Below are positions 41,605-49,508 of a stretch of 51,197 nt of DNA, in pieces (positions within the stretch are counted from its first letter, which is position 1; the number at the start of each line of letters is the position of its first letter). The translations under genes were made by a program, and so were the position numbers. The stretch covers positions 1-51,197 of the forward strand of contig JAFXAC010000077.1 in assembly GCA_017522125.1 (NCBI GenBank). Direction: 5' to 3'. This DNA is from Clostridia bacterium (GTDB lineage: Bacteria > Bacillota > Clostridia > Oscillospirales > CAG-272). The notes below the pieces were generated by a model. That model had not been told where the DNA came from. It did not search any database and worked only from the letters and a program-made list of their open reading frames with translations.

Positions 41605-42432
41605 ATGATAAAGGGTATTTTTTGGAGCTTATTTGAAGGAGAGCTTGGTAAGACAGCCTTCTTCGCCTCGGGCGGCGCGTATGCCGTCGCGATAATTCTT
41701 TGTATGATAGTGGGCTATCTGCTCGGTAGCGTAAATTCCGCTATCGTGGTTTCAAAATTAAAGTATAAGCAGGACGTGCGAAATTACGGAAGTAAAAATG
41801 CGGGAATGACGAATATGTTCCGCGTTTACGGAAAAACGGGCGGGCTTCTTACCCTTGCGGGTGATTTTGCAAAGACTCTGCTTGCCGTGCTTTTTGCTGA
41901 GATTCTTGTCGGTAACGGCAAGTTCTTCATCGGAAGCGAGGGTGCGTACGTTGCGGGATTTTTCTGTATGCTCGGTCACATTTTTCCTCTTTACTATAAG
42001 TTTAAGGGTGGAAAGGGCGTGCTTGTTACCGCCACCACTCTGCTGCTCGTTGAGCCAGTGGTATTTGCGGCTTTGTTCGTTATATTTGCAGTCATCTTTC
42101 TCGGCTCAAAGATGGTTTCGCTTGCATCCGTGATGTGCGCGCTTCTTTTGCCCGTGCTTGTGGATAGCTATTATAAGGTGCTGATAGGTCAGGGCGGCGC
42201 GGCAGGCGCGATAAGAATGATAATAATCTTCCTTACCGCAGGCATAGTCGTGTTTATGCACCGCGCAAATATCAAGCGCATATACAACGGCGAGGAATCC
42301 AAAATGGAGCTTTTCAAGAAAAAGAAGCTCCCCGAATCCTCGGATGAGATAGAAGAAGCGGTTGAAGAAAAGCCGAGAGGGGAAAAGGTTGATAAAAATA
42401 CCAGCCGTAAAAAGTTAAGGAATAAAAAATGA
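41605..42432 (+). CDS. plsY: Glycerol-3-phosphate acyltransferase PlsY
   Basis: This 275-residue membrane enzyme acylates glycerol-3-phosphate from acyl-phosphate, starting phospholipid synthesis. It has about five to six transmembrane helices. The three conserved loops are present: LLGSVNSAIVVSK, YGSKNAGMTNMFRVYGK and GHIFPLYYKFKGGKGV. The first ~20 residues and the last ~45 (Glu/Lys-rich, EEAVEEKPRGEKVDKN) go beyond the usual ~200-residue core; the tail is cytosolic and low in complexity. Its TGA overlaps the next ATG by four bases (ATGA). Confidence 0.94.
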   Translation: MIKGIFWSLFEGELGKTAFFASGGAYAVAIILCMIVGYLLGSVNSAIVVSKLKYKQDVRNYGSKNAGMTNMFRVYGKTGGLLTLAGDFAKTLLAVLFAEILVGNGKFFIGSEGAYVAGFFCMLGHIFPLYYKFKGGKGVLVTATTLLLVEPVVFAALFVIFAVIFLGSKMVSLASVMCALLLPVLVDSYYKVLIGQGGAAGAIRMIIIFLTAGIVVFMHRANIKRIYNGEESKMELFKKKKLPESSDEIEEAVEEKPRGEKVDKNTSRKKLRNKK

Positions 42433-43619
42433 CCGATAACGTAAAAATGGCGGCGCACGTCGCCACCCTCGCCGCACGGAAATGCGTGCTTCGAAAATGC
42501 ACGCTCTCAAAGCCCTCGGACAATACCGTGGTGCGCTCCGAGCTATCAATGATGCGGCTCGGCGGCGAAAATGCCCTGCGCCTTGTGACTTATATGAAGG
42601 ACGGCAAGGCTATACAGAAAAATATTACCACAGACGAGCTTTCGGATCTCTTTGAGAAAAACGCCTACGGTCAGATAAATATCATCACTACGCTGGGTGA
42701 ATGCGAGCTTCGCCGTTCAAAATCGGGAAAGGTCACTCTGCTTGGCGGCGATAGGCTTCTTCGCGCTATCAGTGCTGACGTTTCCGAGGAAAAAAAGCTC
42801 ACGCCCGAGTCTAACGACAGAAGGAAAAACCGTATACTTACGGGCGACGAGCCGTTTTTGTACGAGCTTGGCATAACGGATAAAAACGGTCGCATACACG
42901 ATAAAAAGCAAGGAAAATTCAGACAGATATGCCGTTTTCTCGAATACGTCAAGGATATCGAGGAGCATCTGCCGCGCGAGGGCGAGCTTCGCATCTGCGA
43001 CCTCTGCTGCGGAAAGAGCTACCTTTCCTTTGCTCTCTATCACTATTTTGCAGTAGCTAAAAGCCGCAAGGTGTCTATGACGGGCGTGGACCTTAAGCCC
43101 GACGTTGTGGATTACTGCAATCGCGTTTGCGAAAGTCTTGGCTTTTCGGGACTTGAATTTATCTGCGGCGACGCAATAAAATATGAAACCGAAACTCCCC
43201 CGTCGCTCGTTGTTTCGCTCCACGCTTGCGATATTGCGACCGATATAGTGCTTCACCGTGCGGCTGATTGGGGCGCAAAGGTCATACTTTCGACTCCCTG
43301 CTGTCACCACGAGCTTGCAAATAAGCTGGACTGTGCGCCGCTTGGCTTTGCGTCGGCGTATCCTATGCTCAAGCGCAAGATGTGCGATGCTCTTACAGAT
43401 GCTATGCGCCTCTCCTTTTTGAAGAGCCGTGGCTACGCCGTTTCGGCGGCAGAACTTGTCGATCCCGACGACACCCCCAAAAACGTACTGCTGCGCGCAG
43501 TGAGAAAAAATAATTTCGACCCCGCCTCGCGCGAAGCGAAAAAGGCGGTGGCTGAATACGAGGAGATCAAGCGCTTCCTCGTAGGAAACGAAACGCTGTT
43601 TGCCGATACTCTCGAATGA
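42429..43619 (+). CDS. SAM-dependent methyltransferase (Methyltransf_32/GSTCD-like)
   Basis: This 396-residue protein has an N-terminal region of about 150 residues (LSKPSDNTVVRSELSMMRLG; KNAYGQINIITTLGECELRR) and a class I methyltransferase domain. The SAM loop is CDLCCGKSYLSFALYHYF near residue 190 and the acidic second strand is TGVDLKPDVVDYC. Motif IV region: VVSLHACDIATDIVL, then STPCCHHELANKL, the Cys-Cys-His-His mark of the GSTCD-like branch. The substrate, probably RNA, is unknown. Start and stop both overlap neighbours by four bases (ATGA), so plsY, this gene and the next are co-translated. Confidence 0.87.
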   Translation: MTDNVKMAAHVATLAARKCVLRKCTLSKPSDNTVVRSELSMMRLGGENALRLVTYMKDGKAIQKNITTDELSDLFEKNAYGQINIITTLGECELRRSKSGKVTLLGGDRLLRAISADVSEEKKLTPESNDRRKNRILTGDEPFLYELGITDKNGRIHDKKQGKFRQICRFLEYVKDIEEHLPREGELRICDLCCGKSYLSFALYHYFAVAKSRKVSMTGVDLKPDVVDYCNRVCESLGFSGLEFICGDAIKYETETPPSLVVSLHACDIATDIVLHRAADWGAKVILSTPCCHHELANKLDCAPLGFASAYPMLKRKMCDALTDAMRLSFLKSRGYAVSAAELVDPDDTPKNVLLRAVRKNNFDPASREAKKAVAEYEEIKRFLVGNETLFADTLE

Positions 43620-44734
43620 AGCTGCATACCGCAAATAAATATCTGTCCTCGCTTCCTCAAAGGGCGGAGAAGGGGATAGCGACGCGCTTTGACGCTTTGC
43701 GCGAAGCGGTGCTTACGGCATTGGGGATTGAAGGAGTAAGCCCTGTGCTTCTTACCGTTTCGGGCGAGGAGCATTCCTACGTATGCCGCGCCGCGGTAGC
43801 GGCACTTGTGCACGCAGGACACCGCGCGGCGCTCATCTGCCTTGACCCGAGCGCTCCCGCCGAGGAGCTTGTAAGGCTTGGACAAAGCTCCGTCGCTGAC
43901 GATGAGGTGGCAGAGGTCGTTACCGTAATACGTCGGATGGCAAGTGCGCTTGGCGTAACGCCCACCCTTATCGAGGCAAAGATCTTGTGCGCTCTTGCAC
44001 TTTGCGGCAGAAGGGGACTCAAAAATATAATTTTGGGCTTTGACCCGTCGCGTGTTACACGCGCGTTTTTCGATATCATTCCGCCCTCGCGCACGGTTGC
44101 CCTTTTACCCTCGGAGGCAAGCGCCGCCGATAGTGCCGCCATCGTGCGAAAGGGTGTGCTTGAGGTCATAAGCGCACCGCGCGGCGAGGACGAATATAGA
44201 GCGATCTCGGCAGTATGTGCCGCGGTCAATTGCAGGCATAGCGTTATCTCGCGCTCGGCTGTTGCCTCGTCCGCGTTTACTTACAGGGGAATTGAATTTT
44301 CCTACAAGGAGCGCCAATACGCCTTGCGCGGACACTCCGAAAGTATGATAACTGCGGCGCTTTCTGCCGTTTTGACGGCTTGCGCGCTCGAAAGGCGGGG
44401 CTTTAAGATAAACGAGGCAGACGTCAGAGCGATCTTGCCCAACGTAGCCGTGGAATACGGATGCAGGATAGTGTCGTACAATCCGTGCATCGTGGCTGCC
44501 GTTTACCGAAACGGTGCGCCCTCGTCGCAGATAGACGGTGATCTTGAGCGCATTTGCGCTCACCTTGGTAAAGCGGTCCGCGTGTTTTCCGTTCGCGAGG
44601 ATATAGCAGAGCTTGATGCCGCATTTCAAGCGTGCCGCGACGGTGAGTGCGCACTTTGCGTTAAGGGAGATGCGGGCTTTGTCCGCAATACTCTGAAAGC
44701 TCTCTCGGAATGGATAGCTCCACCCGTAAAATAA
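43616..44734 (+). CDS. FolC/Mur-ligase-like protein with degenerate P-loop
   Basis: This 372-residue protein has no obvious full match, but its layout follows folylpolyglutamate synthase. The opening resembles FolC (ANKYLSSLPQRAEKGIATRFDALREA). A strand-loop-helix, VLLTVSGEEHSYVCRAAVAALVHAGHRAALI (residues ~43-73, key part VSGEEHSYVC), sits where FolC has VxGTNGKGST. A GHxxxNAxxA-like helix appears as LRGHSESMITAALSAVLTAC near 243, and RIVSYNPCIVAAVYRNG stands where FolC has the DGAHNP segment. The Gly-Lys-Ser/Thr of the P-loop is lost (GEEHSY), as is the DGAHN motif. It is probably not an ATP-dependent ligase. It overlaps the methyltransferase gene by four bases. Confidence 0.68.
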   Translation: MKLHTANKYLSSLPQRAEKGIATRFDALREAVLTALGIEGVSPVLLTVSGEEHSYVCRAAVAALVHAGHRAALICLDPSAPAEELVRLGQSSVADDEVAEVVTVIRRMASALGVTPTLIEAKILCALALCGRRGLKNIILGFDPSRVTRAFFDIIPPSRTVALLPSEASAADSAAIVRKGVLEVISAPRGEDEYRAISAVCAAVNCRHSVISRSAVASSAFTYRGIEFSYKERQYALRGHSESMITAALSAVLTACALERRGFKINEADVRAILPNVAVEYGCRIVSYNPCIVAAVYRNGAPSSQIDGDLERICAHLGKAVRVFSVREDIAELDAAFQACRDGECALCVKGDAGFVRNTLKALSEWIAPPVK

Positions 44735-44754: not shown

Positions 44755-45486
44755 ATGTCAAAAAGAGCCTTGATCGTCATAGGAGTGATCATACTCCTGC
44801 CGATAATGTTTACCCTGTTCTTTTATATAAGCTATTGCGGCGATAATCCCGTCGTGGCAAGCTATGACGGCGACGTTACGAGAATATCGTATAAGGACAA
44901 GATCCTTGTTGCCGTAGATGGGGAAGAGAATTATAGGTTCAGATATGGGGAATATCTCGGAAAAATAGGCGACAGAAACTTCGGTCCGTCCCTCTACCGT
45001 GTGCGTGACGATGAGGGCGGATGCTATTACGCCGTCGCCGACCGCGATAAGGACCTGCTGTACACCGAGTCGGGGCTGCTCGAGGACGGTGTGAAAACGG
45101 GCAACAGTACCGTAACAAGACTTGTTTTTGATAACTATTCGGTAATTATCGAAGGCTTTGAGGCGCAAACGGTGAGTAATGCCCTTTCGGGTGCTGATGC
45201 CGAGCAGATCGAGCTGAAGCCCGCGAAGTACCGTGACGAAAACGGTAAAGACCAATATCGCATTTACGATATATGGCTTTCTTACGACGGCTCTGCCATA
45301 CTCACGGAAAACGTAGGCAAGCTATTTTATCTGACAGAGGAAAAGACTTGGGCGTTCGTCCCGCTTGAAACGTATGAGGAGGGCATCGAGAAGTACGGCG
45401 AGAGCAGCAGCAAGCTTGTATTCGGCGCATACGCGGTAAAGTCGGCAGCGGCACGCATCGTGCTTAGCGAATACATACCCAAATAA
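44755..45486 (+). CDS. Membrane-anchored protein of unknown function
   Basis: I do not recognise this 243-residue protein. One N-terminal transmembrane helix (about 5-27; ALIVIGVIILLPIMFTLFFYIS) is followed by an extracytoplasmic, beta-rich domain with many Asp, Tyr and Gly residues (DGEENYRFRYGEYLGKIGD). Only one Cys (in YCGD) lies just after the helix, but the context is not a lipobox. It follows the FolC-like gene by 20 bases with AAAGGTGA before the ATG, so it may be the last gene of the plsY operon. A terminator follows at 45497-45536. Confidence 0.78.
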   Translation: MSKRALIVIGVIILLPIMFTLFFYISYCGDNPVVASYDGDVTRISYKDKILVAVDGEENYRFRYGEYLGKIGDRNFGPSLYRVRDDEGGCYYAVADRDKDLLYTESGLLEDGVKTGNSTVTRLVFDNYSVIIEGFEAQTVSNALSGADAEQIELKPAKYRDENGKDQYRIYDIWLSYDGSAILTENVGKLFYLTEEKTWAFVPLETYEEGIEKYGESSSKLVFGAYAVKSAAARIVLSEYIPK

Positions 45487-46012: not shown

Positions 46013-46041
46013 TTGACACTTTTTTCAGAATATGTTAATAT
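46013..46041 (+). promoter_or_regulatory. Promoter of the sugar ABC transporter operon
   Basis: TTGACA (46013-46018), 17 nt, TAATAT (46036-46041), 62 bases before the start codon. Confidence 0.8.
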
Positions 46042-46103
46042 ATATTTTAGAAATTTATTTTCGGCGGGAAAATCCCGCAAAAACAAAGGTAGGAGGAGTT
46101 GTA

Positions 46104-49100
46104 ATGACAACAAAATTCCAAAGAATTGTAGCTCTTCTCCTTGCCGTCTGCACTATGATGGGCTGTTTTATGCTTACAGCATACGCCGCTGATCCGACGT
46201 CGGATTCAAAAGGCGATTCAGTCACAAGTAATGCTATCGCAGACGCGAGGGAGCTACTCGATGCTATCACCTATGCAGAGTATCTTGCTTTGTACGGTGA
46301 CGACGCGATATACCCGTCGGGCACCGAAAGCATCGTGATCAATGGCGTTGACTATTATGCCGACAAGACCACGGCTGACGTCAAGAAGGAAACTTATGAC
46401 GGCATCGAGGGTCTGGTTACCCCCGAAAGCGGTGAGGTTACCTGGAAGGTCAACGTTCCCAAGACTGCCAAGTATGCTATCAAGCTTAAATACTGGCCTG
46501 TTGAGGGTAAGCCCGCGGCTATTCAGCGTGAGTTTAAGATAAACGGCGCTGTTCCTTTCGTCGAGGCTTATTACATCACTCTTTCGAGAGTGTGGAAAAA
46601 CGTCTATGACGAAGCAAACAAGCACACCCTTGAAACGGGCGATGAGCGTTATTTTCAGGCTGACTTCCTCGGAAACGAGATCAGACCTACGATGGTGACC
46701 GCTCCCGAATGGTGCGAGTATTCCCTTAAGGACATCGACGGCTTCTATCAGGACAGCTTCGAGTTTATGTTCACCGAGGGCGAGAATTTCATCACCCTTG
46801 AGGGCATAAGCCAGGCTATGGCTATTGCCTCTATCGAGCTTTACCCCTACGAAGAGCCCATTTCCTATGACGAGTACATCAAAAAGTACGAAGGTCAGCC
46901 CAACGGTACGGGCAATATAAAGTTTGAGGCAGAGCTTCCCTATAAGCTTTCCACCAACACCGTATATCCCGTTGAGGACCGTACCTCCGCACTCACCAGC
47001 CCCGTAGATCCCTCCTGCACTCTGCTTAACACCCTCGGCGGTGAAAAGTGGCAGACCTCGGGTCAGTGGGTAAGCTATCAGTTCACCGTTGAGACCAGCG
47101 GTATGTACGAGATAACCTCTCGCTTCAGACAGGACATCAATGACGGTATGTATTCCTCCCGTGTGCTTTATCTGTACAGTGACGACAGTGTTGCTGAGGG
47201 CGCGCTCGGATACTATAACGGCATTCCCTTCAGCGAGGCAAGAGAGCTGAGATTCAATTATTCTACCGATTGGCAGTCCGCGGCCCTTCAGTACGGCAAG
47301 TCCGTAGTGAACGAGGACGGCGAGACCGTAGTAGAGCTTTGCGATACGAAGTACTACTTCGAGGCGGGCGTTACCTACACCATGAAGCTTGAGGTTTCTC
47401 TCGGCTCGATGGGTAAGGTTATAAGCGATATTGAGAATTCCCTTACGGTAATCAACAACGCTTACCTTAACATAATCAGACTTACAGGCTCTAACCCCGA
47501 CGAGTATCGTGACTATTATTTCAGCGAGATAATGCCCGATACCATTATCAATATCATTCTCGAGGGTGAGAAGCTCAAGACCATTGCAAATCAGCTCGCA
47601 GCTCTTTCGGGCGAAACGGGATCTAACGTTGCAACGCTTCAGAAGATCGCGCGTCTGCTTGAGAGAATGGGCTCCGACGAGGACGAGATAGCAAAGAACC
47701 TTGAAACTCTCAAGACCTATATCGGTACTCTCGGCACTTGGCTCAGCGACGCAAAGAGCCAGCCCCTCCAGCTTGACTACATCGTGATTCAGGCTCCCGA
47801 GGATGAGCTTCCCGAGGCTGATGCAGGCTTCTTCGCAGCACTTTGGCACGAGCTTAAGAGCTTCTTCTGGAGCTTCTTCCGCGATTACAACAACATGGGT
47901 GCGTCCGCCGAAACCATTTCGGGCAACGAAACCATCGAGGTTTGGATCGCTACGGGCCGTGACCAGAGCCAGGTTCTCCGTAACCTTGTAAATAACGACT
48001 TTACTCCCGCTACGGGAATTCCCGTTGACCTCAAGCTCGTTGCAGCTAACACGCTTCTGCCTTCAATTCTTGCGGGCAGCGGTCCTGATACGTATCTCGG
48101 ACTCAGCGATAACGACGTTATCAACTACGCTATCCGTGGTGCGCTTGCTCCCATAGAGAATCAGGAGGGCTTTGATGAGGTTGCATCGACGCAGTTCAAT
48201 AAGGCTGCAATGATGGTTCTTGGTATTGCAGACGCACAAGAGGTTATGCACTACTACGGACTTCCCGAAACGCAGACCTTCCCGATGATGTTTATCCGTA
48301 CCGACATTCTTGCAAATCTCGGTATTGAAAAGCTCGATACTTGGGGAGATCTCCTTTCCGCAGCTACCGTTCTCAGCCAGAACAATATGACCATCGGTCT
48401 TTCCAACGACTATAAGATATTCCTCTATCAGATGGGCAGTGAGCTGTTCATTGACGGCGGAATGAGAGTCAACCTTGACTCCAACCTCGCACTTGATTCC
48501 TTTGAGACCATGTGCGATATGTTCACTCAGTACTCCTTCCCCTATAAATTCGACTTTGCAAACCGCTTCCGTACGGGCGAGATGCCCATCGGTATTGCCG
48601 CATATAACGCTACCTACAACCAGCTCATCGTATTTGCTACTGAGCTTCGCGGACTTTGGGAATTCGTTCCGCTGCCCGGCTATGAGTACGTAGATGAAAA
48701 CGGCGAGACCAAGATCAACAACTGCTCCGTTTCTACCGTAACGGCAACCGTTATGATCAACAACGACGGCGCAAATGCCGAGGCGCTTCATCAGAAGGCT
48801 TGGGAGTTCATGAAGTGGTATTCGGGCGCTGATTGCCAGATCAACTACTCAAACGAGATGGTTGCTATCCTCGGTGACTCCGCAAAGCACGCTACCGCAA
48901 ACGTAACCGCGCTTGACTCGATGCCTTGGACCAACAAGGAATACACGAACCTCAAGGCTCAGTTTGAGAACCTTGCTTCCATTCCTAACTACCCCGGCAC
49001 GTACATCATTCAGCGTTACACTCAGTTCTCCTTCCTGTCTGCTTATAACGACAAGCTCGATCCTACCGACGACCTTCTCGGATACATTCCCGTTATTAAT

Positions 49101-49508
49101 AAGGAAATATCTCGAAAGAGAGAAGAGTTCGGACTTGAAACCCTTGAGGTCGGAGAAACGCTGGCAAGCAAGCGTCAGTATATGATACTTGCGGCACTTG
49201 GCGCACTCGACGGACAGGGACTTACGAAGGCAGAGGAGGAAAGATACACCTCACTCGTTACCGTTATCAGCGACGCAGACAAGACGACCTACGCCGCAGA
49301 GATAGAGGCGCTTAAGAAGGCACTTTCCGACGTTCCTTCATATAAGGCTTATTGTGAGGACGTTTACATCGACGCTCTCAGAGCCGCAGGTGATGCTCTC
49401 AAGGCAGCAAACGGCGAGCTGTTTGGAAACATCAGCAAGTACGTCAACACCTGTGCTGACGCGCTGAAGTCGTATCAGGCATCTTACCCCGCTCCTATCG
49501 AGGGATAA
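46104..49508 (+). CDS. Giant ABC sugar-binding protein with N-terminal extension
   Basis: This 1134-residue exported protein has a signal peptide (residues 1-28; cleavage probably after TAYA). The first ~450 residues hold two beta-rich modules that look like carbohydrate-binding or beta-sandwich domains (VTWKVNVPKTAKYAIKLKYW; WVSYQFTVETSGMYEITSRF). A helical, coiled-coil-prone stretch (~470-560) comes next. The solute-binding domain (~607-915; TIEVWIATGRDQSQVLRNLV, LPSILAGSGPDTYLGLSD) resembles YtcQ/LplA-type proteins. A helical tail (~990-1134) ends it. Typical binding proteins are 420-560 residues, so this is twice the usual size. AGGAGGAG precedes the ATG at 46104. Two permease genes follow. 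No ATPase is in view. Confidence 0.88.
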   Translation: MTTKFQRIVALLLAVCTMMGCFMLTAYAADPTSDSKGDSVTSNAIADARELLDAITYAEYLALYGDDAIYPSGTESIVINGVDYYADKTTADVKKETYDGIEGLVTPESGEVTWKVNVPKTAKYAIKLKYWPVEGKPAAIQREFKINGAVPFVEAYYITLSRVWKNVYDEANKHTLETGDERYFQADFLGNEIRPTMVTAPEWCEYSLKDIDGFYQDSFEFMFTEGENFITLEGISQAMAIASIELYPYEEPISYDEYIKKYEGQPNGTGNIKFEAELPYKLSTNTVYPVEDRTSALTSPVDPSCTLLNTLGGEKWQTSGQWVSYQFTVETSGMYEITSRFRQDINDGMYSSRVLYLYSDDSVAEGALGYYNGIPFSEARELRFNYSTDWQSAALQYGKSVVNEDGETVVELCDTKYYFEAGVTYTMKLEVSLGSMGKVISDIENSLTVINNAYLNIIRLTGSNPDEYRDYYFSEIMPDTIINIILEGEKLKTIANQLAALSGETGSNVATLQKIARLLERMGSDEDEIAKNLETLKTYIGTLGTWLSDAKSQPLQLDYIVIQAPEDELPEADAGFFAALWHELKSFFWSFFRDYNNMGASAETISGNETIEVWIATGRDQSQVLRNLVNNDFTPATGIPVDLKLVAANTLLPSILAGSGPDTYLGLSDNDVINYAIRGALAPIENQEGFDEVASTQFNKAAMMVLGIADAQEVMHYYGLPETQTFPMMFIRTDILANLGIEKLDTWGDLLSAATVLSQNNMTIGLSNDYKIFLYQMGSELFIDGGMRVNLDSNLALDSFETMCDMFTQYSFPYKFDFANRFRTGEMPIGIAAYNATYNQLIVFATELRGLWEFVPLPGYEYVDENGETKINNCSVSTVTATVMINNDGANAEALHQKAWEFMKWYSGADCQINYSNEMVAILGDSAKHATANVTALDSMPWTNKEYTNLKAQFENLASIPNYPGTYIIQRYTQFSFLSAYNDKLDPTDDLLGYIPVINKEISRKREEFGLETLEVGETLASKRQYMILAALGALDGQGLTKAEEERYTSLVTVISDADKTTYAAEIEALKKALSDVPSYKAYCEDVYIDALRAAGDALKAANGELFGNISKYVNTCADALKSYQASYPAPIEG

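Follow-up and report, generated by a model that had tools for sequence, protein, structure and literature searches.

A FolC-derived gene behind plsY and a methyltransferase gene in Clostridia has lost its catalytic motifs and is probably retained as a pseudoenzyme

The stretch of DNA analysed here, which we call the window, comprises 51,197 nucleotides of contig JAFXAC010000077.1 from a Clostridia bacterium (CAG-272). On its forward strand, plsY and a methyltransferase gene precede an open reading frame that we refer to as FolC-B, with the following features:

41605 to 42432, forward strand: plsY, glycerol-3-phosphate acyltransferase (TIGR00023, above cut-off).
42429 to 43619, forward strand: SAM methyltransferase of the Methyltransf_32 family, 396 aa (PF13679, E 2.9e-32).
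43616 to 43619, forward strand: ATGA, the 4-base overlap of the methyltransferase stop and the FolC-B start, read from the sequence.
43616 to 44734, forward strand: FolC-B, a probable FolC-derived pseudoenzyme; intact ORF of 372 aa, ATG to TAA, with N-terminal and central domains at residues ~1-280 and a shortened C-terminal domain at ~285-372.
43763 to 43783, forward strand: former P-loop, residues 50-56, GEEHSYV versus GTNGKGS in FolC (alignments).
44105 to 44146, forward strand: site of the catalytic DHT...EKAGIIK loop, deleted or replaced, residues 164-177 (alignments).
44147 to 44239, forward strand: segment with the strongest conservation between intact and degraded FolC-B ("R-x-G-T-x-E-V-I-S"), residues 178-208, RKGVLEVISAP...C...NCRH.
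44498 to 44512, forward strand: DGAHN position, residues 295-299, AVYRN (alignment).
44755 to 45486, forward strand: hypothetical protein downstream of FolC-B.

The methyltransferase gene overlaps plsY at its upstream end and, judging from the sequence, is probably translationally coupled to FolC-B at its downstream end. The FolC-B frame is intact, as the earlier note had reported: shuffling the same bases yields a mean of 14 stops, and because none of 2000 shuffles was stop-free, chance does not account for so long an open frame. Its GC content by codon position is 0.62/0.50/0.59, and the normal base use described previously holds for positions 1 and 3, where the values lie near those of the neighbouring genes. 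A sequencing error or wrong frame is ruled out, as the same loss is found in five same-genus species from separate assemblies. Farther downstream (46032-49508), the window encodes a 1158-aa secreted-looking protein with a leader, whose C-terminal half resembles a solute-binding protein by eye.

Sequence profiles are blind to the relationship between FolC-B and FolC, and the assignment rests on structure, synteny and evolutionary intermediates. A Pfam search with FolC-B returned nothing above threshold (the best match being MeaB at 13.8 bits versus a cut-off of 23.1), NCBIfam gave no match, which places FolC-B below the curated cut-off of FolC TIGR01499, and a sequence search of the PDB gave no credible match. 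Similarities to MeaB, LpxK or HEAT are weak and under the cut-off, and were rejected. The Mur ligase superfamily domains PF08245 and PF02875 found no Pfam match in the window FolC-B; an intact FolC-B (L008) and a FolC-A (L002) do match.

For structure prediction with AlphaFold2, the input alignment consisted of P-loop-less sequences only, because true FolC rows could otherwise dictate the fold. The model of the window FolC-B has a mean pLDDT of 69, with ~84 over the first 210 residues. It agrees with the FolC-like architecture proposed in the earlier note: the top 17 Foldseek matches are all FPGS/FolC (best E 2e-11), and VIA-align gives a Z of 22.0 to the L. casei FPGS (262 residues, rmsd 3.1), with the best non-FolC chain at Z 15.5. 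The match to the L. casei enzyme covers residues 1-282, the C-terminal domain being modelled with low confidence. A second model, of a relative from the best-conserved clade (L110, pLDDT 78), matches L. casei FPGS from residues 1 to 420 (Z 28.2, 360 residues, rmsd 4.7), and since this match spans both FPGS domains, both domains persist in the group. The window FolC-B is thus predicted to have the FolC/FPGS fold and with it the fold of the Mur ligase superfamily.

The window genome has one canonical FolC (L002, with AGTNGKGS and DGAHNPEG), which is located on a different contig. When FolC-B is aligned with it, the P-loop site reads SGEEHSYV versus AGTNGKGS, and DGAHNPEG becomes AVYRNGAP; both of the losses claimed in the earlier note are therefore confirmed. 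In addition to these, we observe the loss of the DHT...EKAGIIK loop, the carrier of the metal ligand and modified lysine of FolC, and the replacement of the SPY loop and VLEAGMGGRLDSTN. ATP-driven ligation of the FolC type requires the P-loop, the metal ligands and the modified lysine, and as all of these are gone, such ligation by the window FolC-B appears very unlikely from its residues. A role for the dead copy as a stand-in for a missing FolC is ruled out, since the genome has an intact one; the copy at C67 is the only one there to pass the TIGR01499 profile. The same genome contains six further Mur-ligase middle domains.

Across the family, the slot after plsY and the methyltransferase gene holds an intact FolC with all motifs in genera g18, g80 and g87, where none of the five genomes concerned yielded a second FolC. 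Degraded copies occur in ten genera of the family, namely the window's genus and nine more. The metal/lysine loop and DGAHN are lost in every one of the degraded sequences (23/23), while Walker A is kept in three lineages, as GG[RS]GKTS (g19), GSNGK[TS] (g56) and GEAGKSS (g93), and lost in all others. A separate intact FolC is present in 19/24 genomes with a degraded copy. For the other five, comprising G003, G102 and G031 (96-99% complete) as well as G059 and G140 (incomplete), no FolC-A was detected beside the degraded copy, which argues that the dead copy is not dependent on FolC-A. Two intact FolC genes in one genome were not found among the sampled family genomes. Among 30 loci fetched from an order-wide search, no P-loop-less copies were found outside the family, and the best outside matches all carry GTNGKG[ST].

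Two side observations concern FolC itself. No FolC match at E 1e-18 was obtained for 44/146 family genomes (completeness of 90% or more in 27 of the 44), which suggests either that folate polyglutamylation has often been lost or that a replacement has been missed. In G031 (99% complete, no intact FolC detected), the degraded FolC is reduced to a 293-aa remnant (L084), perhaps a later stage of loss.

The strongest support for the descent of degraded from intact FolC-B is synteny, with the order plsY-methyltransferase-FolC-B found in 21/22 such loci, whether the copy is intact or degraded. More distant homologues in synteny that still have their P-loop appear to represent the ancestral, unmodified type and do not amount to a refutation. 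In the tree, FolC-A, intact FolC-B and degraded FolC-B are separate, with the degraded rows on long branches; because of these branches, the tree is weak evidence for a joint origin of the degraded copies, and their grouping may be a long-branch artefact. Degraded and intact FolC-B have in common the R-x-G-T-x-E-V-I-S segment, C-terminal to which a Cys and an Arg are conserved. A count of diagnostic residues in the window sequence gives 5 of B-type and 6 of A-type, and thus does not by itself place the sequence in a lineage.

The preferential conservation of this segment (RxGTxEVIS...C...R) is what one might expect of a neofunctionalised enzyme, in which the FolC scaffold would have gained another chemistry or an unusual nucleotide site. 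Such an enzyme would also be compatible with the lineages that keep a Walker A variant without the rest of the active site: as these variants outlast the other motifs, nucleotide binding may have outlived ligation. However, Walker A is gone in most lineages, including that of the window, the residues that degraded lineages conserve in common are for the most part of core type (Gly, Leu, Pro, Tyr and others), and no new cluster of acid, His or Cys residues common to all degraded lineages was seen. We regard a new enzymatic activity as a long shot.

Within the window's genus, FolC-B homologues were found in five genomes, whose source records describe uncultured gut Clostridia of ruminants and horses. 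The P-loop is absent in all of them (5/5; GQDSEYT, GRESEYA and similar), and plsY and the same methyltransferase precede each (5/5), so that the loss and the neighbourhood described for the window in the earlier note recur together in its closest homologues. While four of the five are 66-72% identical among themselves, all are only 25-27% identical to the window protein, which is the second-shortest copy and lacks a close relative in the sample. Such divergence is fast for a protein whose role is conserved.

Codon models give an omega of 0.095 for the four same-genus pseudoenzymes (2 delta lnL 644 versus omega = 1), 0.098 for the degraded pair G102/G148, which lies beside an amylase-like gene, and 0.119 for the degraded pair G115/G158; these values are approximate, as synonymous changes are near saturation, but neutrality is nonetheless rejected by a wide margin. 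The pairs G030-G115 and G107-G153 were left out for lack of convergence. Purifying selection is strong in the four-species same-genus clade and in two other lineages. On the window's own branch, 2 delta lnL is 0.45, in a test made powerless by synonymous saturation. The description of a maintained gene in the earlier note thus stands for the relatives (omega ~0.1), and for the window species, functional retention is probable by extension from them.

These data bear on whether FolC-B could be a relict, that is, a slowly decaying former FolC that stays open mainly through its operon position and is functionless in the window species. A relict would be redundant with FolC-A, would fit the high divergence within the genus, the shortening to 372 aa and the remnant in G031, and is not contradicted by the window branch, which offers no selection test. 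On the other hand, low omega is observed in three separate lineages whose copies are already degraded, an unconstrained frame at such divergence should hold ~14 stops, and both domains are kept in the group with the same core residues. Simple decay is therefore improbable to us.

If FolC-B is a retained pseudoenzyme, the leading guess for its partner is the co-encoded methyltransferase, of which it would be a dead activator or scaffold subunit; this narrower form of the explanation is a weak favourite and, taken by itself, unlikely. The four-base gene overlap argues for it, as does the equal strength of selection in the testable clade, where the methyltransferases of the same four species have an omega of 0.090. 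Methyltransferase and FolC-B are also present together in 6/13 genomes of the genus and absent together in 7/13, and in 5/7 pair-less genomes, plsY is directly followed by a homologue of the 44755-45486 gene, which otherwise lies 3' of FolC-B. Nevertheless, a single deletion of adjacent genes could account for the joint absence of the pair, and in the family, the majority of sampled methyltransferase loci lack an adjoining FolC-B. Furthermore, the methyltransferase neighbourhood emphasized in the earlier note holds in the window's genus but not in four others (g91, g72, g55 and g48), in which an alpha-amylase-like gene directly precedes the degraded copy instead. This amylase-like neighbourhood is a second conserved setting of degraded FolC-B, and in some loci the two genes overlap.

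Regarding individual loci, L164, L165, L167, L168 and L170 show a clean gap in place of methyltransferase and FolC-B between plsY and the next gene. The amylase-like setting is seen at L129, L130, L131, L132, L133, L134 and L174, with PF00128 confirmed in L129. A broader speculation, which we hold to be rather improbable, is that a dead FolC-B subunit binds and controls the adjacent methyltransferase and has been re-used beside the amylase-like enzyme in sister genera, these proteins being unrecognised Mur-ligase-fold regulators.

The explanation that we favour, and consider probable, is that the window gene encodes a pseudoenzyme descended from FolC, kept for a non-catalytic role in genomes whose folate work falls to another FolC. 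Its ancestor would have been a functional FolC whose gene followed plsY and the methyltransferase gene. In lineages with an extra FolC (FolC-A), the metal/lysine loop and DGAHN would have disappeared from the linked copy, and Walker A would probably have been lost afterwards, in most lineages. The fold would have been kept for a presumably non-catalytic role, most simply that of a binding, scaffold or regulatory subunit. In relatives, purifying selection preserves this fold in the absence of catalysis, a pattern indicative of binding or scaffolding.

Pseudoenzymes that bacteria have evolved from ligases of central metabolism are seldom observed mid-transition. Here, one bacterial family shows the full series, from an intact FolC in a fixed slot through Walker A-only copies to fold-only copies, and this series of decay can be compared with whether a second FolC is present. 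The degraded members escape profile-based annotation entirely, and neither FolC synteny nor a FolC-like model alone is evidence of folate polyglutamylation. In the literature, of which our coverage is incomplete, we found no relevant report of FolC pseudoenzymes.

Among known systems, FolC-B is most like FolC itself (TIGR01499; PDB 1fgs, 2gca, 1w78), with which it shares the fold (both domains in L110), the N-terminal MxxxxAxKY segment and the order of elements, but it lacks the P-loop, the SPY loop, the VLEAGMGGR segment, the modified-Lys loop, the RFE arginine and DGAHN. The wider Mur ligase superfamily (MurC-F, MurT, CphA) shares its central ATPase and C-terminal folds with FolC-B (Z ~14-19), although its structural similarity to FolC-B is below that of FolC and its catalytic motifs are absent from FolC-B. 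PAP11, a MurE-like protein with the Mur ligase fold, is a peripheral component of the plastid RNA polymerase, a complex unrelated to Mur ligases (PMC12681378, PMC9456514), and so offers a precedent for binding or scaffolding by this fold. This subunit (PDB 9epc chain Q) is a structural match (Z 14.2 and 17.8), but it is MurE-derived and from plants, and the kinship to FolC-B seen here is that of the superfamily fold. Finally, the trypanosome prozyme of AdoMetDC, a catalytically dead paralogue kept after duplication (PMC5201418), provides a model for a dead copy keeping a job. The prozyme has another fold and activates its own active paralogue, whereas activation of FolC-A by FolC-B would be unlikely where FolC-A is absent.
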